Of a stretch of 60,768 bases of DNA, positions 50,305-60,768 are shown piece after piece (the stretch's first letter is position 1; each line of letters opens with the position of its first letter). The DNA lies in assembly GCA_031268145.1 (NCBI GenBank), contig JAIRXS010000035.1, forward strand, positions 1 to 60,768, read 5' to 3'. Below the pieces are notes generated by a model. It had not been told where the DNA came from and did no database searches. It saw nothing but the letters and a program-made list of their open reading frames with translations. Source of the DNA: Candidatus Endomicrobiellum siamense (lineage in GTDB: Bacteria; Elusimicrobiota; Endomicrobiia; Endomicrobiales; Endomicrobiaceae). A program made the translations under genes and the position numbers.

Positions 50305-52941
50305 TTATCTACCACCACCAGCTAATTTCGCAAGTTCATTCCAACCAGTTTTCCAATCATCTAAATAGCCTTGAGAGTTTGTAATCCCAGCAGCTTGGAA
50401 AATTTTTTGGTTTGTATCGGTATTCTTTGAAACCCAAGAGCCCGGTGTATTCGCAAGAGTTTCAATTTCTTCCCTCATAGCATTGAGTTGATCTCCAATG
50501 GCATATCCTTTATTGCCAGTAGAATCTAAACCAAATCCTATGGATTGACCTGCCCCGCTGCTGGTATTATATACTTCTAAACACATCTTGCCATCTATAT
50601 CATTTGTCACTACACCAGTTACCATTACTTTAGTACCAGTACCTACAGCACCTTTAAAAGCATCAAACATATCTTGATCTTCAACTTTTACAAATATTTC
50701 TTCACCTTCTTTTGGTGTTATACTATCTTTAAAACCAGATCCGTCAAACATGTTTACAGATTCAGGTGATAGTTTAATGTATACAGGTTTACCAGCCGCA
50801 ATTAAATCTTGAGCTGCTTTTTCGTCTAATACATTGCCATCTGCATCCGTAAACGATTTAGCTTCACCTATAACTGCAGGATCATAGTACTTTGTTTCTG
50901 TTTTCGTTATATCAGTTTCATGTTTTGTTTCAGACTTCATAGTATGTTTATTTGTGTAATCAACAACTGTAACGTCTTTATCATTCATTTTAACCTTAAT
51001 TGTAAATGTTGTAATGGTGTTTACAGTTAAATCATATTCTTGTTTGGTTGTTACTTCAGCTTTATATCTCCCTTTTCCACTCTTTTCATCAGCTAGGTCT
51101 TCTTCAGAAACTCCACTTTGGAACAAGCCCTTGCCTCTCTCAACAGTCTGCCCATTGTGAGTGTCAGTCATATGTTCCCTGCCTGCTACTTCGCCTTCAC
51201 CTTTTCTGTCTGTAATTGTAGTTGTACTGGTTATATTTCTCTTTGAAGTAAGATCTGGTTTATCTTCAGTAGACAATTGCACAGTAAAGTCTGACCTCAT
51301 ATTTAAAAGTGTATTGTATACGTTTTTTAAGCTTTGCCAAACTTTTTGCGATGCAGCTTTTGTACTTGGATCTTTCTCCTCTTGGGCAGCTAAAGCATTT
51401 ACAATTTCTTGAATAGTCGCATTTGGGTGTGCTCTTTTATAGTTTTCATAGGCTACTGCTGTACCAGTCACAGTAGACCCAGTAACAGTTCCAGAAGAAT
51501 CTGTCACTGGTTCTACATTTCTACTTAGAAACACAACTTTAAATAAAGCTTCATTATTTTTCAATTGTTGCCATGAATAATTCAAAGCCGTAACATCTCT
51601 GTTGTTTGCCAAAACCTCTCTTATTTCATCTTCTGTTACATTAGGTTTATTGATAACAGCATCTATCGCTTTGGCTTGAGCTTCTAAAACTTTAGCATTT
51701 TGAGTAGTACCGCTAGCTATAAACCTACCATCATCAGAATATATAGAAATCTTGCTTTGAGAAAATGGCTTAACATCATTATAATCTATAACTGAAGACA
51801 TATTTCCATTTGCAGCATAGTTAATTTTTTGTTTTAAGTGCGGGGCAGTTGACTTATCAGCAGGCTTGTAATAAACTTCTGTTGGTCTACCATTTAAATA
51901 AACTATCACTTCTCCTGTAGATAGATCAGTTTCGCTTATTTTTTGGCCAGTTTTTGTGTCGTATCTATAAGAAGTAGTCAGTTTTTTATCTGCTTCTTTA
52001 ACTTGAGCTACAGCACTTGGTAAGGAAGTACCGCTGCTCCTATTAAAAGTTGAAGAACTTAGAGTACTTTTCCAAGTATATGCTGGCTGACCAGCTGGTA
52101 TTACATTTCCTGCTTCATCTTTATACTTATCTGTGCCATCACTAAATTGCGTAACCGTGACCTCAGTACCAGTAGTTTCAGTCTCGCCAACCTTTATATA
52201 TTGTGTAGGAACAGTTGTTCCATTTCCATATATATATTCACCTGTAGTCCTTCCTAGATAATCTACAGTGCTCAATTTTTTACCTGAAGGGCTAGAAAAT
52301 GTTGCCGAAGTTTCTTGTTCATAATCACCTAAACTTAACTGAACCTCTGCTCCATTTCCAGATTTAAAACCTGCAACTAAAAATTGCTCTACAGTTGACT
52401 TTTGCCCTGTTTGATCTGTCCCTGTTAATGTAGCTATTTTACCAAGCGCATCGTTGAAACTGGCTGTTTCACTTGAACCTTTTATTCCAAAAGCTGCTAT
52501 AAGATAGTCACCAAAAATAGCGTTTGGGCTGTTCTTTTTGTAATTCTCCCATGCTTTAACATCTAAATCATTTAAGGTTATAGAAGTCCACTTATAAGTG
52601 CCGCCTTCATCATCTAATTTTTTAACAGCTCCTTTTTCTACACCATTATAGTAAAGTCTTACTGACTGATCAGCGCCTATAATAGCACTTAATTGGCCAC
52701 CATCAAATTTATAAACTGAAGTTACACTTCCTATTAAATATTTTAAAGAAGCATTAGAATAAGCTTCCTCAAGTTTTTGTTGAGCATCTGAACTCTGCTT
52801 GTACTGCTTATTTAGTTCTAAAACATTTTCTGGGCTAGTCTTTTTTGCATCAAAACCATCTGTAGCAGCTGCAATAATTTTACCAGTATACCCAAAAGAC
52901 AACATTAAAGCCAAGATTAAACTAACTACTTGTTTCCCCAT
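50305..52941 (-). CDS. Large secreted protein of unknown function, 878 aa
   Basis: I do not recognise a family. A signal peptide covers residues 1-26 (SLILALMLSFGYTGKIIAAA). The rest is Thr/Ser/Gly-rich, with few Cys. There are internal repeats: KAWENYKKNSPNA (129-141) and VAYENYKRAHPNA (497-509), and DEAGNV..AGQPAY near 275 and DADGNV..AGKPVY near 720. YD-type motifs such as YLGRTTGEYIYGNG and YDTKTGQKISETD recall Rhs/YD repeats. No sorting-type C-terminus. GGAGG precedes ATG 52941, and its base composition is less AT-rich than its neighbours. Probably an abundant surface or matrix protein. Confidence 0.7.
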   Translation of the reverse strand: MGKQVVSLILALMLSFGYTGKIIAAATDGFDAKKTSPENVLELNKQYKQSSDAQQKLEEAYSNASLKYLIGSVTSVYKFDGGQLSAIIGADQSVRLYYNGVEKGAVKKLDDEGGTYKWTSITLNDLDVKAWENYKKNSPNAIFGDYLIAAFGIKGSSETASFNDALGKIATLTGTDQTGQKSTVEQFLVAGFKSGNGAEVQLSLGDYEQETSATFSSPSGKKLSTVDYLGRTTGEYIYGNGTTVPTQYIKVGETETTGTEVTVTQFSDGTDKYKDEAGNVIPAGQPAYTWKSTLSSSTFNRSSGTSLPSAVAQVKEADKKLTTSYRYDTKTGQKISETDLSTGEVIVYLNGRPTEVYYKPADKSTAPHLKQKINYAANGNMSSVIDYNDVKPFSQSKISIYSDDGRFIASGTTQNAKVLEAQAKAIDAVINKPNVTEDEIREVLANNRDVTALNYSWQQLKNNEALFKVVFLSRNVEPVTDSSGTVTGSTVTGTAVAYENYKRAHPNATIQEIVNALAAQEEKDPSTKAASQKVWQSLKNVYNTLLNMRSDFTVQLSTEDKPDLTSKRNITSTTTITDRKGEGEVAGREHMTDTHNGQTVERGKGLFQSGVSEEDLADEKSGKGRYKAEVTTKQEYDLTVNTITTFTIKVKMNDKDVTVVDYTNKHTMKSETKHETDITKTETKYYDPAVIGEAKSFTDADGNVLDEKAAQDLIAAGKPVYIKLSPESVNMFDGSGFKDSITPKEGEEIFVKVEDQDMFDAFKGAVGTGTKVMVTGVVTNDIDGKMCLEVYNTSSGAGQSIGFGLDSTGNKGYAIGDQLNAMREEIETLANTPGSWVSKNTDTNQKIFQAAGITNSQGYLDDWKTGWNELAKLAGGGR

Positions 52942-53254: not shown

Positions 53255-53596
53255 TTATCTTATTATAACAATTTTTGTATTCTTAGAACTACTGCCCTTA
53301 ATAGCCCACATATATACGCCGCTTGCAACATATTCACCTTGATCATTTTTGCCGTCCCAATTTAACATTGAACCATAATCCCATCTCAGCTTACGTACAA
53401 TTTCCCCAGAAACATTATAAATATCTATCTCGCCACCTTCTATAGGCAATTCTGCAAAAGTAATACCGCCAGTTAAAGTCCCTTGAGAACCAGCCTTACT
53501 TTCAGGAATCCACGGGTTTGGATATACTTTTGTAGCACTAGCAAAAGAAAAAAACATAAAAATAAAAAAAACAGAGAAATATACTTTCTTTATCAT
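53255..53596 (-). CDS. Stand-alone T9SS-CTD/FlgD-like sorting-type domain protein
   Basis: 113 aa. A signal peptide (about 21 residues) is followed directly by a single domain: KVYPNPW, GEIDIYNVSGEIVRKL, WDGKNDQGEYVASGVYMWAI and the ending KIVIIR. This is the pattern of the Por-secretion C-terminal sorting domain / FlgD Ig-like fold normally found at the end of large exported proteins; here it is the whole mature protein. Its ATG overlaps the stop of the barrel-TPR gene (ATGA). Confidence 0.75.
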   Translation of the reverse strand: MIKKVYFSVFFIFMFFSFASATKVYPNPWIPESKAGSQGTLTGGITFAELPIEGGEIDIYNVSGEIVRKLRWDYGSMLNWDGKNDQGEYVASGVYMWAIKGSSSKNTKIVIIR

Positions 53597-55752
53597 CTCA
53601 TTTTCTCCAATGCTCTTTTGGCTTCCATCTTGTCAGGATTATAACTAAGAGATTTCCTTAAAAGTTCCGAAGCCTTATTAAAATTTCCCTTACTATAAAA
53701 ACGCATACCTTCTTCATAGACTACTTGCGCAATCTCTTCTGAAATTCTTTTATATTCAAATGAAGCAAGTGAATTTTCTTTATTATATTGCAAAGCTTTT
53801 TTATATTCCTTTAAAGCTTGCTCAAAATTATTTTTCTTTGAAAATTTAAGACCTTCTTTATAATACATATCAGATAAATCATAACTTAATGTTGCAATTT
53901 GTTCTTGGGATTTTTTAGAATAATCTGAAAAAGAATACTCATCTGCAATTCCTTTGCTTATTTCAAAGTATTTCATTGCATTGATAAAGTCACGTTCTTG
54001 AGAATATTTTAAAGCCTTATCAAAATTATGTTCTAGCTCTTTCATCATTTTATTTTGTAAGATTATTGACCTTCTATTTTTTTCATAACGCTTGATTTCT
54101 TGAGAACTATTTTTAGCTTTATCTATCAAATCTCTCACATCTCTTCTCTGCGGACTAGCAATAAAAACAGCTTCAAAATATATTATTGATTCTTCATATT
54201 TACCTTCTTCAAACAATTCTATACCTTTTTTGTATAATTCTTGGATTTTGCCAGCAACAACTTTTGAAAGCTGGTTATCTATATTTGCTATAAGATTTTG
54301 AGCAGATTTATTTTTTGAATCTATATTTAAAATAAAACCTAAAGATTCTCTAGCATGCACTAGATCCCCTTTTTTATAAAATTTTTGAGATCTATTCCAT
54401 AAATATTCTATTCTTGCTCTGTTTTTATTTCTTTCCATTTCGAGCTTAACTTGATTTGAATATTCATCTGATTGTTCCAATCCTTTTTTTGCAAGTAAGC
54501 TTCCTGGATCCATATCTAAAACTTTATTGAAATTTCTCTTTGCTTTTACTATATCACCTTTTTTTAAAGCATTGTTAGCTTTTTGCATATACCCGTTAAT
54601 AATTTTGGCATTATATAAATCAACATTTGAAAGCTTGTCATTAATTTTTCTTAAATACATTTGCGATTTTACATGTCCTGGATAAACAGAAAGAATATCG
54701 CCAAACGCTTTTCTCGCCGCTATGTAATCTTCTTCATTATATAAATTGACAGCTTCTCTAAAATGATTTTGCATATAATAATCGTAAGCTGTTCTCTCTG
54801 AGCTAAACCCACCTAAAGCTAAACTTAAAGTTACACTGTGAGTACCTCCAAGTTTACTTTGTGGAGTATACGAATAATCTAAATTTAGATTCTGAAAATC
54901 TACACCAAAACCAAATCTTGCGTCCGTGTCAAAAGAATCTTCAGTAAGTTTTAAACCAGCTCTCAAATCTAAAAAATAAATTGGTTCAAAAGATGCACCT
55001 ATAGAGAAAAAATCTCCTGAAAAAAGCTGGTTGTTATAATCTAAGGTCACTTTGAAATTATAAAAATCATCTTCTTGATATGCAAGACCAACTGCTAAAC
55101 ACTGAGGCAAATCGAATTCTTCACTTAAAAATTTAAGTTTAGTACCAAAATTTTTTAAAACTACACCTAAATAAAAATTATCTATTTTAGAAAGGCTTAA
55201 AACTGTACCGACATCAAGTGCTACTGCTTCTGTTTCATAAGAACACAAAGCGCTTCTTATAACTTTTAAATTGACTCCTACGCCCCCGTAAAAAAATTCT
55301 ATAGGGACTGTCTTTTTTAAATCTACTGAATAATTTAAAATAAATCCTAAATCGTTTGAAGTCTCTTCTTTTATCGGGTTTCCAAGACTGTCCACATAAT
55401 TTATATCTCCATACCCTGCATACATAGCAGACAATCCAATATTACCAATTGCCGTAGGAAATTGAGCGCCTATATAATTATACTGTATGCTTGAAAATAT
55501 TGATGTATTATTTACAGAGGCAATAACTCTATAACTGCCTATACTAACAGCTGGGTTTAAAACAACAGCGGTAGGGTTGCCCGATAAAAGAGCACAACCG
55601 CTATCCCCCATCGCAATAGTAACAGGATTTGGATTATATGCTAAGATCTGACCTGACACAGAGCCTGCTGCTGCGGCCAAACAACAACATGGATAATATG
55701 TAAGAAGAAATATTAAAAGGAATATAGAAGTTATTTTTTTGCAAATTTTCAA
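53593..55752 (-). CDS. PorV-like outer-membrane barrel fused to TPR repeats
   Basis: 719 aa. Signal peptide to about residue 28. Residues ~30-320 have a UPF0164/PorV-type start (TIAMGDSGCALLSGNPTAVV, LNPAVSIGSYR) and barrel strands (GLSAMYAGYGDINY, FGFGVDFQNLNLDYSY). From ~325 there are about eight TPR-like units (AVNLYNEEDYIAARKAFGDI, GIELFEEGKYEESIIYFEAV, GMRFYSKGNFNKASELLRKS). PorV shuttles cargo in type IX secretion; the fused TPR would lie in the periplasm. Coupled to the small sorting-domain gene. GAGG lies 12 nt before ATG. Confidence 0.78.
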   Translation of the reverse strand: MKICKKITSIFLLIFLLTYYPCCCLAAAAGSVSGQILAYNPNPVTIAMGDSGCALLSGNPTAVVLNPAVSIGSYRVIASVNNTSIFSSIQYNYIGAQFPTAIGNIGLSAMYAGYGDINYVDSLGNPIKEETSNDLGFILNYSVDLKKTVPIEFFYGGVGVNLKVIRSALCSYETEAVALDVGTVLSLSKIDNFYLGVVLKNFGTKLKFLSEEFDLPQCLAVGLAYQEDDFYNFKVTLDYNNQLFSGDFFSIGASFEPIYFLDLRAGLKLTEDSFDTDARFGFGVDFQNLNLDYSYTPQSKLGGTHSVTLSLALGGFSSERTAYDYYMQNHFREAVNLYNEEDYIAARKAFGDILSVYPGHVKSQMYLRKINDKLSNVDLYNAKIINGYMQKANNALKKGDIVKAKRNFNKVLDMDPGSLLAKKGLEQSDEYSNQVKLEMERNKNRARIEYLWNRSQKFYKKGDLVHARESLGFILNIDSKNKSAQNLIANIDNQLSKVVAGKIQELYKKGIELFEEGKYEESIIYFEAVFIASPQRRDVRDLIDKAKNSSQEIKRYEKNRRSIILQNKMMKELEHNFDKALKYSQERDFINAMKYFEISKGIADEYSFSDYSKKSQEQIATLSYDLSDMYYKEGLKFSKKNNFEQALKEYKKALQYNKENSLASFEYKRISEEIAQVVYEEGMRFYSKGNFNKASELLRKSLSYNPDKMEAKRALEKMR

Positions 55753-55789
55753 AGTTAGCCTCTAGTGCAGATACAAAAAAAGAAAAGCT

Positions 55790-56482
55790 TTATTTTTTTG
55801 AGGATGGTATAAACTCAAAGCCTAAACCAAAGACAGTTACGATATGTTTTGACCACGGGCCTAAAATATGACGGAGGTTTTTTATATGTGTGTCAATCGT
55901 TCTGGTGGCAACTACTGCATTGTATTCAAAAACATTTTCTAAAATAACTTCTCTACTTAAAACTACATTAGGGTTAGACATAAGCATATATAGCAGATCA
56001 AATTCTTTTGGGCGTATAGAAATTTGTTTATTATTTAAAGTTACAGTCTTTGAATCTAACAACATTATAATTCCATCATGTTCTATTTTTTTGACTCCTT
56101 CTTTTCTGCGCACTCTACGCAGTAAAGATTTCACTCTTGCGATAAACTCTCTATTGCCAAATGGTTTTGTTATATAATCATCTGCACCATGTTCAAAACC
56201 AAGAACTTTAGACGTTTCTGTAGACTCAACCGTCAACATAATAATTGGAATATTTTTTGTTATAGGATTAGTCCTAAGCATTCTGCTAAGCTCAAGACCT
56301 CCGACACTAGGCATTCTAATATCAATAACCGCAAGATCAGGCTTTGATTTTAAAATTCTCTTATAACCCTCATCTGTATCTTTACAAGTAATAACCATGA
56401 AACCTTCATCTTCAAGAACCTTCTTAAGCAAAGTCGTTAAAGCAGCATCATCATCAACAATAATTATTTTACTTTCTATCAT
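55790..56482 (-). CDS. OmpR-family response regulator, orphan
   Basis: 230 aa. Receiver domain with acidic D10-D11-D12 and phospho-acceptor D54 (AVIDIRMP), followed by a winged-helix output domain (RPKEFDLLYMLMSNPNVVLS, TRTIDTHIKNLRHIL). No histidine kinase in the window. It lies 37 bp upstream of the PorV-like gene on the same strand, so it may control that surface locus. GAGG precedes ATG. Confidence 0.92.
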   Translation of the reverse strand: MIESKIIIVDDDAALTTLLKKVLEDEGFMVITCKDTDEGYKRILKSKPDLAVIDIRMPSVGGLELSRMLRTNPITKNIPIIMLTVESTETSKVLGFEHGADDYITKPFGNREFIARVKSLLRRVRRKEGVKKIEHDGIIMLLDSKTVTLNNKQISIRPKEFDLLYMLMSNPNVVLSREVILENVFEYNAVVATRTIDTHIKNLRHILGPWSKHIVTVFGLGFEFIPSSKK

Positions 56483-56549
56483 TATTGATAACTCCTCAGA
56501 AGATATTATGCTTTAGATTAACATAAATTAAAGTAAGATACTTCATAAC

Positions 56550-56587
56550 TTTACTGCTCTGCCAAAACTTTTTGGCAGAGCAGTAAA
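56550..56587. repeat. 18-bp perfect hairpin after the two-TM protein gene
   Basis: tttactgctctgccaaaa (56550-56567) and ttttggcagagcagtaaa (56570-56587) form an uninterrupted 18-bp stem with a 2-base centre. It lies 6 bp after the stop of the 56594 gene on the minus strand. No U-run follows in either direction, so it is either a non-canonical terminator, an RNA-stability element or a palindromic binding site. Confidence 0.6.
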
Positions 56588-56593
56588 AACCTA

Positions 56594-56881
56594 TTATTCT
56601 TTTACTTCTAAGGAAACTACAATGCTACTATTAAACTTTGCAACAACAAAATTATAAAGCCATGCTACAATTATAGCACCAACCGCCATAATAACTGTGT
56701 AGAGAACAACAAAAACTGCCCAAGATAGTAATCTTGCTCCAAATCCAAGACCTGCAGCTAAATCTGTAGGGAAAAAGAAAAATGTAAATAAACCAATGGT
56801 TGCTCCAAGGATTGCAAATACAATAGGAAAAACTTTAAGAACTGAGGAAACTTGAACTTTCTTTACACCGTAAAGAGACAT
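56594..56881 (-). CDS. Small two-TM membrane protein
   Basis: 95 aa. Two hydrophobic segments (residues ~15-40 and ~50-75) separated by a Gly-rich loop, ending ALYN-type sequence AWLYNFVVAKFNSSIVVSLE, which resembles a common small membrane protein family (DUF3566-like) with a YNLVAKWVGG-type end. Function unknown. GGGGG lies 5 nt before ATG. Between fba and the response regulator. Confidence 0.7.
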   Translation of the reverse strand: MSLYGVKKVQVSSVLKVFPIVFAILGATIGLFTFFFFPTDLAAGLGFGARLLSWAVFVVLYTVIMAVGAIIVAWLYNFVVAKFNSSIVVSLEVKE

Positions 56882-56973
56882 TTTATCCCCCTTATGTTTT
56901 ATTACACGCTAAACTACATGGACAAATTGTAATAGAATATTTTTTTCTTGTCAAACTTAATAATACAAATTTT

Positions 56974-57969
56974 TTACTTTAAAGCATACCCCTTTTTCAT
57001 ATCGTCAAGAGTTTTTGGAGTATAATCACCGGCATGTCCTGCAGTTTTAAAAGCTTTCATTTTAGAGATTATAAGATTTGTTAAAGCCATTCTTGCTGGT
57101 CCCAAATAATCCCTAGGATCAAACTTTTCTGGAGTTTCGGTAAAGACCTTTCTTATAGCTGCCGTAATTGCAAGTCTGCCATCAGTATCAACATTAATTT
57201 TCGATACGCCAAGTGTTATTGCTTCTTGTAAACTTTCCATTGGCACACCAGTAGCACCTGGCATTTTACCACCATATTTATTAACTTCTTCTATTAATTC
57301 TTTTGGAACTGAAGATGCTCCATGTAGTACGATAGGGATACTTATTAAAGACCTAATCTCTTTTAAAACATCAAAAGCAAGATTTGCCGCGCCTTTAAAC
57401 TTATATGCCCCGTGAGATGTCCCTATAGCAATAGCTAATGAATCAACACCTGTTTCATCTACAAACTTTTTAGCTTCTTGAGGATCTGTTAAATGAATTT
57501 TCCCTGAACCTACACCGTCTTCTATACCCCCGAGAGTACCGATTTCAGCTTCAACAGAAACGCCTCTTGCGTGAGAGTACTCCACAACTGAACGTGTAAC
57601 TTTTACATTATATTCATAAGTTGAAGCTGTCTTGCCATCTTCCATTAAAGAGCCATCTATCATAACAGAAGAGAAACCCAAGTCTATAGCTTTTATAACA
57701 GACTCTAAAGAGTTCCCATGATCCAAATGCATCGCAACAGGGATTTCAGGATTTTCTATAACTGCTGCTTTCATTAAATAGCCTAGATACGTAAAATTAG
57801 AATACTTTAAAGCCCCTCTACTTGCTTGGATAATCACAGGCGACTTTGTCTCTTTTGCAGCAGCCATAATAGCCTGAATTTGTTCCATATTGTTTACATT
57901 GTAAGCACCTACACCATAACCGCTTTTTTTTGCTTCTTCTAAAATTTGTTTACCTGGTACTAACGCCAT
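56974..57969 (-). CDS. fba: Fructose-bisphosphate aldolase, class II
   Basis: 331 aa. Zinc ligands in VAMHLDHGNSLE, EAEIGTLGG, AIGTSHGAY and PIVLHGASS; substrate block KINVDTDGRLAITAAIRKVF. Splits fructose-1,6-bisphosphate in glycolysis. AAGGAGG lies 4 nt before ATG. It follows accA by 18 bp in reverse order: accA is upstream of fba? On the minus strand accA (58995-57988) reads first and fba second, with an 18-bp gap. Confidence 0.95.
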   Translation of the reverse strand: MALVPGKQILEEAKKSGYGVGAYNVNNMEQIQAIMAAAKETKSPVIIQASRGALKYSNFTYLGYLMKAAVIENPEIPVAMHLDHGNSLESVIKAIDLGFSSVMIDGSLMEDGKTASTYEYNVKVTRSVVEYSHARGVSVEAEIGTLGGIEDGVGSGKIHLTDPQEAKKFVDETGVDSLAIAIGTSHGAYKFKGAANLAFDVLKEIRSLISIPIVLHGASSVPKELIEEVNKYGGKMPGATGVPMESLQEAITLGVSKINVDTDGRLAITAAIRKVFTETPEKFDPRDYLGPARMALTNLIISKMKAFKTAGHAGDYTPKTLDDMKKGYALK

Positions 57970-57987
57970 TTTGCCTCCTTTATTTCT

Positions 57988-58995
57988 TTAAAGTCTTTTT
58001 TTTTTTTTTTTGGGGTATTTGTTTTTAACTACTTTTTTAGGTTTATCTTCGTAGATCCCCATATTTCTAAATTTTAAATATCTTTCTTCAACAATTTTTC
58101 TTTTTGGCATAGTTTCATAAATTGCAAGATACTTATTTAAAGACGTTTTTATATTTAATGCGGTTTTTTCGTAATCATAATGAGCACCTCCTAAAGGCTC
58201 TTTTATAATTTCGTCTATAACCTTTAAGCTCAATAAATCCTTTGCAGTTAATTTCATCGCAGAAGCCGCTTGAGAAGCTTTTGAACCATCTCTTAAAAGT
58301 ATTGCAGCACAGCCTTCTGGAGAAATAACAGAATAATACGCATTCTCTAAACATAAAACTATATTTGAAACACCTATCCCTAGAGCACCACCTGATCCTC
58401 CCTCACCTATAACTACACTTATTATAGGCACTTTTAAATCAGACATATCTCTTAAATTTCTAGCTATGGCTTCAGCTTGACCTCTTTCTTCCGCTGCAAT
58501 ACCTGGGTAAGCTCCAGCAGTATCTATAAAAGTTATGATAGGCCTATTAAACTTCTCAGCTATTTTCATAATTCGCATTGCCTTTCTATACCCTTCAGGA
58601 TGGGCCATGCCAAAATTTCTATCCATGTTTTCTTCTAAAGTTCTACCTTTTTGATGCCCTATTACTACAACAGATTTTCCATTTATTGAAGCTATACCAC
58701 ATAAAATTGCTTTATCATCACCAAAAACTCTATCACCAGAAAGCTCAATAAAATCTTCAAAGATAAAATTTACATAATCTGTAAAATATGGCCTCTGAGG
58801 ATGCCTTGCAATTTGCACCCTTTGCCAAGCAGATAAAGAATTATAAATCTTTTGTTTCAATTCGTTTTTTGTCTTTTCTAAATCTTTAATTTGGTCAGAT
58901 AAATCTATGTCTCCATTCTGTACAGCCTTTTTTAACGCCTCTATTTTTTTATCCATGTCCACTATAGGATTTTCAAAATCAAAAGTTATTTCCAT
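57988..58995 (-). CDS. accA: Acetyl-CoA carboxylase carboxyltransferase subunit alpha
   Basis: 335 aa. Family blocks [58 protein letters not shown] and [17 protein letters not shown] are intact. Partner of AccD (23935). The last codons run through 16 consecutive A's on the minus strand (57996-58011 as T's), giving a Lys-rich tail [10 protein letters not shown] and a stop. Such a tract is prone to slippage, but only the last few residues would change. GAGG precedes ATG. Confidence 0.96.
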
Positions 58996-59036
58996 TTGTC
59001 CTCACTAATCTTGTAAATGCTACTTAAAAAGTCTAT

Positions 59037-59750
59037 TCAAAACTTCCCAGAATAAGTTACCCTTAAAATTCTTTCATTTGCAATCCTTGTTATTGTAGTA
59101 TCGTCTTTGCCAAAACAATCTCTTACAATACAGTCCACATCAAAATATTCAGTCAAGGATAATTTCAGTCCACAATTAAGCCTTGCATTTGGAAAATAAT
59201 CTATATTGTCATATTCTGTCATAAAATACACAACTTCGTTAAAAAGGGGAAATATTGTATTTATAAATCCATAAACCTTAACTACAGAAAAATCATTGAC
59301 ATTAGCTCCAACATTTAACATAAATCCGTCAAAAATAAGCTCTCTGCCTAACACAACATATAGACCTCTTGCCTTTTGAACAAAGCCACTTTTTAAACTA
59401 GTATCAACAAAATAGCCTTGGCCACTATAACCTATAGCAATACCTGGCAAAGTCATACTTCCTTCATAAATTTCAAATTTAATATTTAACGTAGGTATAG
59501 CAGCTTTAATATTGTTATCACTAATAAGTCTATCTATTTCCCAAAACATTCCTATATCCAAAGGTTTAAAAACGCCAAAATCAATATTAGCAATCACATT
59601 ACCATTAGAAAAACATCTAAACCAAAAATCATAAGAGCCATAATTCAATAATCCATGCGTAGGGGTATCTATTACATATGTTTTTGCAGCAAAAGAAAAA
59701 ACTGGAAAAATAAAAACTACTAAAAATAAACTTACTATGTTTTTTAACAT
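59037..59750 (-). CDS. Predicted outer-membrane beta-barrel protein
   Basis: 237 aa, no named family. Signal peptide (LKNIVSLFLVVFIFPVFSFA) followed by about ten alternating strands (FWFRCFSNGNVIANIDFGVF, GIAIGYSGQGYFVD, GFMLNVGANVND, RLNCGLKLSLTEYFDVD) and a C-terminal Phe (YSGKF), as in YjbH-/porin-like barrels. ATG 59750 with GGAG 7 nt upstream is preferred over a start at 59792. It follows the shikimate-kinase remnant; terminates 41 bp before accA. Confidence 0.65.
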   Translation of the reverse strand: MLKNIVSLFLVVFIFPVFSFAAKTYVIDTPTHGLLNYGSYDFWFRCFSNGNVIANIDFGVFKPLDIGMFWEIDRLISDNNIKAAIPTLNIKFEIYEGSMTLPGIAIGYSGQGYFVDTSLKSGFVQKARGLYVVLGRELIFDGFMLNVGANVNDFSVVKVYGFINTIFPLFNEVVYFMTEYDNIDYFPNARLNCGLKLSLTEYFDVDCIVRDCFGKDDTTITRIANERILRVTYSGKF

Positions 59751-59933
59751 TAACAAACTCCAAAATATTTTGCCTGATATACAGACAAACAATCATATCT
59801 GCATTTAAAGACAATCTACGTCCGCTTAGAAAATTACGCGTTAACTTATATCTACTAGCAAGTATAAATATCTTTGCAGCCTCTCATGCTAGTATATATA
59901 GTATCACATATTAATTGTATATATCAACGTCTG

Positions 59934-60146
59934 TCAAATAAAAATAAGGGCATTTAATCTGTCTATAAATCCTAAAACAACCTCGTGTACAGAAAGACCA
60001 TCTATATTAAAAGACAAATCACAATTTGCATACGCTTCTTTTCTAATATGTAAAAATTCTTTTATTTTAGCTAAAGGATTTTTACACATCAAAAGAGGAC
60101 TTAAAAGTTGTTCGACATTACTAGGCAGATCATATGGAGACATCAA
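59934..60146 (-). pseudogene. Shikimate kinase C-terminal remnant
   Basis: Residues read SPLLMCKNPLAKIKEFLHIR, then KEAYANCDLSFNIDGLSVHE, which follows the lid and C-terminal helix of AroK. The P-loop, the shikimate-binding DR and roughly the first 110 residues are absent. No ribosome site is seen. It is a decayed fragment, unless the frame starts at 60146 as an independent short peptide. Confidence 0.6.
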
Positions 60147-60154
60147 ATTTTCAA

Positions 60155-60286
60155 AATTTTATAATCTTTATTTTCTATCGATAAAGCTATGAGTGAACCT
60201 AATGTTTTTTGATACCTAATGCCAGGAATTTTTTTACTACTATAATATCTTCATTCTCATAAATTACTTCTATTGTCTCTTTCATA
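60155..60286 (-). pseudogene. Frameshifted small-gene remnant
   Basis: On the minus strand ATG near 60286 reads MKETIEVIYENEDIIVV, then stops after KKFLALGIKKH. One frame over it continues IPGIRYQKTLGSLIALSIEN to a stop near 60155. The start resembles DUF104-type antitoxins (xIIEVIYENG), but the match is too short to be firm. It may be a broken gene with a shift in an A-run. Confidence 0.3.
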
Positions 60287-60301
60287 CAATATAATACTAC
60301 T

Positions 60302-60768
60302 TCACTTTTGTATAGCGATTTTTCTAATTTGATTTTTACCGGAATCTGTTTTTATACTTATAAAATATATTCCAGGGGCTACTTTACTCCCATTTTCATT
60401 TCTCAGATCCCACCTAAGTGTCTTCCTGTTTAACTCTTCTTGCAGTTCCAATATACTAAAATTTCTTACAAACTCACCATTTATATTATATATCCTAGCT
60501 TCTAACCTTGACACATCTTGCGAAAAATTTGCTATTTTTACATAACTATCTACACTAAGTGATACTGGATTTGGACATATTAAAATATTTTTATTTTCAG
60601 GATCTACTAGCACTGGAGGGTTTGGTTTTGGTGGGATCGATGGTGACCAGTCTGTATCTGCATCTAAATATAATCTCCCATGCCCAAACATATTATTAAC
60701 ACTTCCTCCCATTTGTATAACATGCTTTGTTGTTAAAATTCTTTTAACTTCTTCTGGCTTTGTTAAAT
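60302..60768 (-). CDS. Subtilisin-like protease C-terminus with T9SS-type sorting domain, partial
   Basis: The open frame runs to the window edge, so the N-terminus is outside. It begins LTKPEEVKRILTTKHVIQMG and reads NNMFGHGRLYLDADTDW, the closing helix and GxGRL-type end of an S8 subtilase. A Pro-rich linker (SIPPKPNPPVLVDP) leads to the sorting domain: ILICPNPVSLS, IYNINGEFVRNF, GSKVAPGIYFISI and KIAIQK. The domain matches that of the 53255 protein in order and spacing. Probably an exported surface protease. Confidence 0.75.
   Translation of the reverse strand, partial: LTKPEEVKRILTTKHVIQMGGSVNNMFGHGRLYLDADTDWSPSIPPKPNPPVLVDPENKNILICPNPVSLSVDSYVKIANFSQDVSRLEARIYNINGEFVRNFSILELQEELNRKTLRWDLRNENGSKVAPGIYFISIKTDSGKNQIRKIAIQK

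Follow-up and report, generated by a model that had tools for sequence, protein, structure and literature searches.

A putative type IX-type export core with a conserved, cargo-less sorting domain in the phylum Elusimicrobiota

The type IX secretion system (T9SS) is described as restricted to Bacteroidetes (PMC4793230) or as belonging to the Fibrobacteres-Chlorobi-Bacteroidetes (FCB) group (PMC11205867), and its translocon SprA is called FCB-specific (PMC12611786). In Bacteroidota, according to the mechanism outlined in PMC12635249, a substrate passes through SprA, encounters a carrier docked there and is then expelled with inner-membrane energy; type A substrates share the carrier PorV, and type B substrates have a dedicated carrier to which they stay bound. 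Literature searches, as far as they reach, gave no published description of a T9SS, SprA or Por secretion in Elusimicrobiota, and the excerpts of PMC12204202, PMC7031533, PMC8542988 and PMC3909097 describe no T9SS in this phylum; according to PMC3909097, Poribacteria have TIGR04183 domains but no Por structural genes. We analyzed 60,768 nucleotides from Candidatus Endomicrobiellum siamense (assembly GCA_031268145.1, contig JAIRXS010000035.1), an Endomicrobium-like member of the Elusimicrobiota from the termite gut. This stretch, hereafter the window, makes up an entire contig (G000:C37) in a genome of 1.26 Mb that is 94.9% complete. It encodes a 113-residue sorting-only protein, i.e., a secretion sorting domain without cargo, together with a PorV-family outer-membrane barrel fused to tetratricopeptide repeats (TPRs). 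Judged by homology, both belong to the outer-membrane core of a T9SS-type system in a non-FCB phylum; the layout of this core is unusual, and the sorting domain without cargo is conserved.

Small proteins with a T9SS C-terminal domain (CTD) are described in Bacteroidota. PorA of Porphyromonas gingivalis is reported to bind PorV and to act upstream of PorXY-SigP (PMC7712824), and a Sov-PorV-PorA network is reported in PMC8754138. The latter source also presents P. gingivalis PorW, a TPR-array lipoprotein that links Sov to the PorK/N ring, although its TPR parts did not bind PorN in the test reported there.

The sorting-only protein (53255..53596, minus strand) consists of a signal peptide (residues ~1-21, by eye, without a visible lipobox cysteine) and one type A-like CTD; it is an export tag without cargo, as the preliminary description of this DNA had supposed. 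In an alignment of 26 sequences, the PNP box at the start of the domain (residues 26-28; 53513..53521, minus strand) and its surroundings are conserved, with P26, P28, W29 and P31 invariant and N27 at or above 90%. The segment IYNVSGEIV (residues 59-67; 53396..53422, minus strand) is the counterpart of motif L-β3-β4, which PMC11285876 reports as essential in RgpB and not conserved in mirolase; its Gly64 is invariant, and I59, Y60 and K108 are kept in at least 90% of the sequences. The predicted structure is a seven-stranded, immunoglobulin (Ig)-like sandwich that shows the L-β3-β4 glycine and the C-terminal lysine. Its highest structural Z scores were to the uncleaved CTDs of the attachment complex proteins PorZ (9.6) and PorU (9.1), and the mirolase CTD and T9SS substrate CTDs scored 7.3-7.7. 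PorZ carries propellers besides its CTD, whereas the sorting-only protein has no further domain. The top NCBIfam row was likewise the PorZ C-terminus (38.6 bits; whole-protein cut-off 260), and a search against PDB sequences gave PorZ (0.069) and FlgD (0.8) only. The modelled domain resembles T9SS domains most closely in structure, and FlgD only slightly less. Among the matches listed (120 of 387 relatives), some are labeled 'T9SS type A sorting domain-containing protein' in public databases and others 'flagellar hook assembly protein FlgD'.

The sorting-only gene is coupled to the gene of the 719-residue PorV-TPR carrier (53593..55752, minus strand) by a four-nucleotide ATGA overlap of the carrier stop with the sorting-only start (53593..53596, minus strand), which is in keeping with the translational coupling proposed earlier. 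The carrier scored 99.7 bits with PorV_fam (cut-off 90) and also passed TPR models. Its FadL/PorV-type barrel region (residues 31-318; 54799..55662, minus strand) has 14 long strands in the predicted structure and is followed by a helical TPR array (residues 319-718; 53599..54798, minus strand); a PDB sequence search with the carrier returned designed TPRs only. Because it comes after the last barrel strand, the TPR array is expected in the periplasm, a topology deduced from the order of the parts. The adjoining response regulator (55790..56482, minus strand), already remarked in the preliminary description, is of OmpR/PhoB type in profile models, and the transcription order on the minus strand is response regulator, PorV-TPR, sorting-only gene.

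We compared the 30 top-ranking PorV-TPR loci, among them that of the window. A sorting-only homologue adjoined the barrel gene in 26 of them and overlapped it in 16 of these 26; a response-regulator homologue lay upstream in 29 of 30, pieces cut by locus ends counted. Ten loci (L054-L057, L059, L060, L073, L074, L076, L078) have a sigma-70-family gene between regulator and carrier, which was not seen in the window's genus among the 30; the two of these genes scanned in Pfam showed Sigma70 regions 2 and 4. At L062 a GGDEF gene precedes the response regulator. The ratio of nonsynonymous to synonymous substitutions (dN/dS) of the sorting-only and PorV-TPR genes was ~0.10-0.15 against L050-L052 and 0.23-0.27 against L058, which is more distant. 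Purifying selection acts on both genes, the cassette of response regulator, sigma-70 factor in some relatives, PorV-TPR and sorting-only gene is conserved, and the pairing exceeds chance. A promoter and terminator scan stayed at or below shuffle level.

A genome-wide check for T9SS machinery, suggested in the preliminary description, had a divided outcome: a SprA homologue was found, and GldL, GldM and GldN (PorL, PorM, PorN) gave nothing above cut-off. Three TIGR04189 matches on contig C39 lie within one 1769-residue frame, which as a whole protein scored 123.5 bits, i.e., below the 200-bit equivalog cut-off; SprA of F. johnsoniae (6h3i) has 2403 residues. A single-sequence PDB search with the 1769-residue protein gave nothing. 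A profile of 26 SprA-like sequences from the phylum, 27-83% identical to the protein of the window's genome, recovered F. johnsoniae SprA at E=1.8e-36 together with its second entry; the remaining two rows (E 0.3-0.4) are at chance level. The best segment is 84% identical to an Endomicrobium sp. metagenome-assembled genome (MAG) and 83% to Candidatus Endomicrobiellum MAGs; these and the looked-up rumen genera with SprA relatives are Elusimicrobiota of the Endomicrobiaceae (NCBI taxonomy). SprA relatives were listed as the best 80 of 414 and, in another listing, as 120 of 364 (7989 candidates scored). Named genomes among the best 80 of 414 bear Elusimicrobiota names, except two titled 'bacterium', and among the matches listed, named database entries are nearly all hypothetical, one being a 'Gliding motility protein SprA N-terminal'. 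Across 149 Elusimicrobiota genomes drawn from a larger set and not mutually independent, 132 encode a SprA-like protein. On C39, the gene order is a 391-residue protein with a CTD-like end, a 583-residue PorV-family barrel (60.1 bits, cut-off 90) and SprA. Of 21 loci retrieved, 18 have a comF homologue after SprA, and in most of them two ~360-residue proteins encoded on the opposite strand, LptF/LptG by eye in three cases, lie ahead of SprA. At L079:3184-4659, a PorV-family barrel has a C-terminal extension that is FlgO/CsgG-like by eye.

The motor search covered GldL, GldM and GldN with curated models, the sensitivity of which bounds the result, and the genome set included no known T9SS motor genome as positive control; none of the three passed its cut-off in the 149 genomes, which gave three weak rows for GldM and five for GldL, the best of these eight at 24.7 bits where 68.3 were needed, and one for GldN. 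The C25 peptidase (PF01364) gave no match in the window's genome at its 94.9% completeness and was above cut-off in one of the 149 genomes (G006), and the PorU model NF033707 matched the window's genome in the CTD part only. Fourteen control genomes had no match for SprA, GldM, GldL, GldN or C25 models; one of them, Bacteroides ihuae, had a TIGR04183 match, and the PorU model appeared below cut-off in Thermotoga maritima and Haloferax volcanii. With no GldLMN above cut-off and C25 in a single genome, the Elusimicrobiota pathway is hence not shown to be a classical T9SS; the type IX-like pathway that the preliminary description placed in another phylum is supported by the SprA homologue, the PorV-like barrel and the T9SS-like domain. 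The genome's only MotA/TolQ/ExbB-type match (G000:C9:67277-67579) may be an energy source.

Further CTD proteins and carriers occur in the genome. At the window's end, the contig breaks off within the gene of a CTD cargo, leaving its C-terminal fragment (60302..60766, minus strand; sorting domain 60305-60595), which passes TIGR04183 (31.6 bits, cut-off 23) and PF18962, i.e., Por_Secre_tail (30.6 bits, cut-off 27). That the sorting-only protein and this tail share one kind of domain, as noted earlier, was confirmed. The same description called the cargo a subtilase; the fragment itself has no subtilase match, and the name comes from paralogues above the TIGR04183 cut-off, one on C44 with Peptidase_S8 at E=3e-25, the other on C4 with 0.019, below cut-off. 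Altogether we counted five stop-free CTD reading frames (one cut by a contig end), a 51-residue contig-end fragment and one weak row. CTD-like copies with stops lie at G000:C21:37890-38188 and G000:C30:46327-46461; together with a SprA gene with stops in G121 they indicate that cargo and translocon are decaying among some of the relatives. PorV-family barrels number three (window, C39, C8), with TPRs above cut-off in the window and C8 proteins. The C8 gene (L210, G000:C8:31000-42000) stands behind FHA/propeller, PP2C and receiver genes; in relatives from the same order, 18 of 20 PorV loci have a receiver gene beside PorV and 18 have a PP2C gene within two genes. This row may form a trans-envelope signalling unit.

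Outside the window's order we inspected the top 20 PorV loci by score, not a random draw, from 15 genomes (six stretches of the same class, 14 of other classes). A same-strand CTD protein lay at most three open reading frames (ORFs) from PorV in 17 of 20; CTD ORFs accounted for 14 of the 39 ORFs next to PorV, 19 of the 101 at a distance of up to three and none of the 59 beyond. PorV-family carriers seem mostly dedicated here. Stand-alone CTD genes of 113 and 121 residues at L193 and L199 imply that the sorting-only gene type is not confined to the window's order. Two-component genes adjoined PorV for six of 13 long barrels versus none of seven short ones (Fisher p 0.051, hand count), where long means at least 513 residues, taken as extended by length alone; at L199 such genes adjoin the CTD gene, not PorV. 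In the phylum survey, TIGR04183 (E 1e-4) matched 89 of 149 genomes, i.e., 87 of the 132 with SprA and two of the 17 without (G141, 78% complete; G115, 280 contigs), a difference with Fisher p 2e-5 in a test that ignores relatedness. At L193, L196 and L199, genes for a TPR protein and for a TolC-like outer-membrane efflux protein come after PorV. Downstream of the PorV gene at L198, a 554-residue protein (L198:9500-11164) combines a FliF C-terminal domain with the middle and C-terminal domains of FliG.

Compared with the T9SS of Bacteroidota, the SprA-like translocon, the PorV barrel with 14 long strands and the CTD with its L-β3-β4 glycine and C-terminal lysine are alike. Unlike there, the parts occur in another phylum, with GldL/M/N below cut-off in 149 genomes and C25 in one, and the carriers mostly stand beside their own tagged protein, many being C-terminally extended, here by TPRs. 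A dedicated carrier and a substrate expected to remain bound recall type B export by SprB/SprF (PMC12635249), whereas the carrier here is of the PorV family, the domain type A-like and the tail made of TPRs instead of a twin-Cys tail; the window barrel gave no PorP/SprF-type row in Pfam and NCBIfam scans. With PorA (246 residues) the sorting-only protein shares the small size, the CTD, the presumed binding to PorV and the tie to a response regulator and sigma factor, as far as PMC7712824 describes it. PorA differs in having a FimH-like domain ahead of the CTD. Here there is nothing but the CTD, the PorV carries TPRs, the regulator is of OmpR/PhoB type, and the sigma factor that some relatives have shows Sigma70 regions 2 and 4. 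Fjoh_0547, a CTD protein of F. johnsoniae with 112 residues, is alike in size and, inferred from that size, probably little more than a CTD, whereas it is reported as secreted in sprA and porV mutants, and the excerpt of PMC7712824 mentions no cassette.

We consider the homologies of SprA, PorV and CTD firm at the level of sequence. Somewhat less surely, we propose that the window encodes part of an outer-membrane export pathway of the type IX kind and that the sorting-only protein probably stays docked on its carrier, perhaps for signalling. The pathway would comprise the SprA-like translocon, several PorV-family carriers and proteins with type A-like CTD tags. The sorting-only protein would travel through the Sec pathway and SprA to the co-translated PorV-TPR, where docking is likely, given the gene pairing, and would remain uncleaved, since without a detected sortase, tagged proteins are expected to stay on their carriers. 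Carrier and tag could thus act as one outer-membrane unit with the TPR tail in the periplasm as a handle or relay. The preliminary description had suggested a competitor, lid or tether; the pairing of the genes and the signalling genes nearby speak rather for a partner that docks and has a regulatory function. Since the response regulator is conserved and a sigma-70 factor accompanies it in 10 of 30 loci, the unit may report export or surface state to the cell, as PorV-bound PorA is proposed to do for PorXY-SigP; by this analogy and the neighbourhood, signalling is plausible, if tentative. A bolder and rather doubtful version would be a T9SS without GldLM motor or sortase, in which the periplasmic TPR tails of dedicated PorV carriers serve as handles and signal relays and the sorting-only protein is a sentinel, its loading onto PorV-TPR being read by the response regulator and sigma factor of the cassette. 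A SprA/PorV/CTD set across Elusimicrobiota shifts the known range of the type IX system; its outer-membrane core may be separable from the motor, so that the energising of the core can be asked in a natural system possibly without GldLM, and the sorting-domain-only protein offers a ready minimal substrate.

Several observations weigh against the docked, type IX-linked tag. The sorting-only protein stays below the curated CTD cut-offs (TIGR04183 21.8 of 23 bits, PF18962 15.8 of 27), and its model is of middling quality (predicted local distance difference test, pLDDT, 72.7). Beside SprA, the 391-residue protein passes no curated CTD model (CHU_C 16.8 of 27, zero NCBIfam rows), its strong own-profile score arises by construction, and the TPRs of the 583-residue barrel are below cut-off. 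Three of the 20 out-of-order PorV loci (L182, L198, L201) have no CTD neighbour. TIGR04183 is missing from 45 of the 132 SprA-positive genomes, many in family f13, so the link of tag and translocon is not visible everywhere, and the co-occurrence is confounded, as 10 of the 17 SprA-less genomes belong to the window's genus, and six of these 10 measure 0.5-0.8 Mb. Four of the 30 cassettes have no sorting-only gene: at L053 there is just a gap in which no CTD can be read, and L060, L075 and L077 have other genes in that position. SprA is absent in the genome of L077 (G008) and present in the other three, so a strict co-loss of SprA and sorting-only gene fails. PMC7712824 reports PorA at the surface without the T9SS machinery and in partly cleaved form bound to anionic lipopolysaccharide (A-LPS), and Fjoh_0547 as secreted without SprA; the sorting-only protein hence need not use SprA. 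Binding, surface location and signalling of the pair are predictions.

Among other explanations, a decoy or lid is conceivable and unlikely: a minimal passenger would block or clear an idle PorV-TPR or SprA gate against leak, without signalling. The missing cargo part suits this, as do the barrel coupling and the 16 of 26 gene overlaps, which imply matched stoichiometry, and PMC12611786 reports that in F. johnsoniae the translocon channel opens once PorV and Plug are both removed. A decoy or lid leaves the response regulator in 29 of 30 loci and the sigma-70 gene in 10 of 30 unexplained, however, and cargo-bearing CTD proteins pair with PorV barrels likewise. We also considered, and do not favour, a BamG-like role of PorV-TPR in an unusual β-barrel assembly machine with the small protein as surface partner, which is very unlikely. 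It is highly improbable that the cassette is a remnant in decay, left by the reductive evolution of an intracellular symbiont. Such a relic would agree with the C21 and C30 copies with stops, the SprA gene with stops in G121 and the lack of any SprA match for 10 of the 26 genomes from the window's genus, but both cassette genes are intact with the low dN/dS values given above, and the SprA frame is open over 1769 residues and 83% identical to four same-genus relatives.

Least probable of all, and rejected, is a reading of the domains as FlgD-like or other common Ig folds unconnected to type IX export. FlgD_ig is the sole Pfam family above its cut-off for the sorting-only protein (28.9 bits, cut-off 27; CHU_C 23.2, cut-off 27), some relatives carry FlgD names, and in Foldseek FlgD was level with PorU as a match and FlgD chains were many, which also counts against the T9SS assignment. 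Against such a fold-only explanation stand SprA and PorV barrels in the same genome, the C-terminal position of the domain in cargo, PorZ and PorU as highest Z, and the retained Gly64 and C-terminal lysine. The preliminary description had set against itself the outcome of FlgD or unrelated Ig folds only and no SprA-, PorM- or PorN-like genes; SprA was found, GldM and GldN stayed below cut-off, and PorZ and PorU as highest-Z matches speak against an FlgD-only reading. FlgD was not among the 50 rows of the Z-ranked search, an absence that excludes nothing. A full FlgD hook-cap protein was also tried as a candidate and dropped: full FlgD models scored far below their cut-offs (no flagellar-gene search was made), and the sorting-only protein has nothing but this one domain after its signal peptide.

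Two neighbouring proteins complete the region. Downstream of the sorting-only gene, an 878-residue protein with a signal-like start (50305-52941, minus strand) matches no family above cut-off and has a homologue in four of the 29 other cassette loci (L050, L051, L052, L058). A 251-residue protein (59037-59792, minus strand) gave zero Pfam or NCBIfam rows at E 1.

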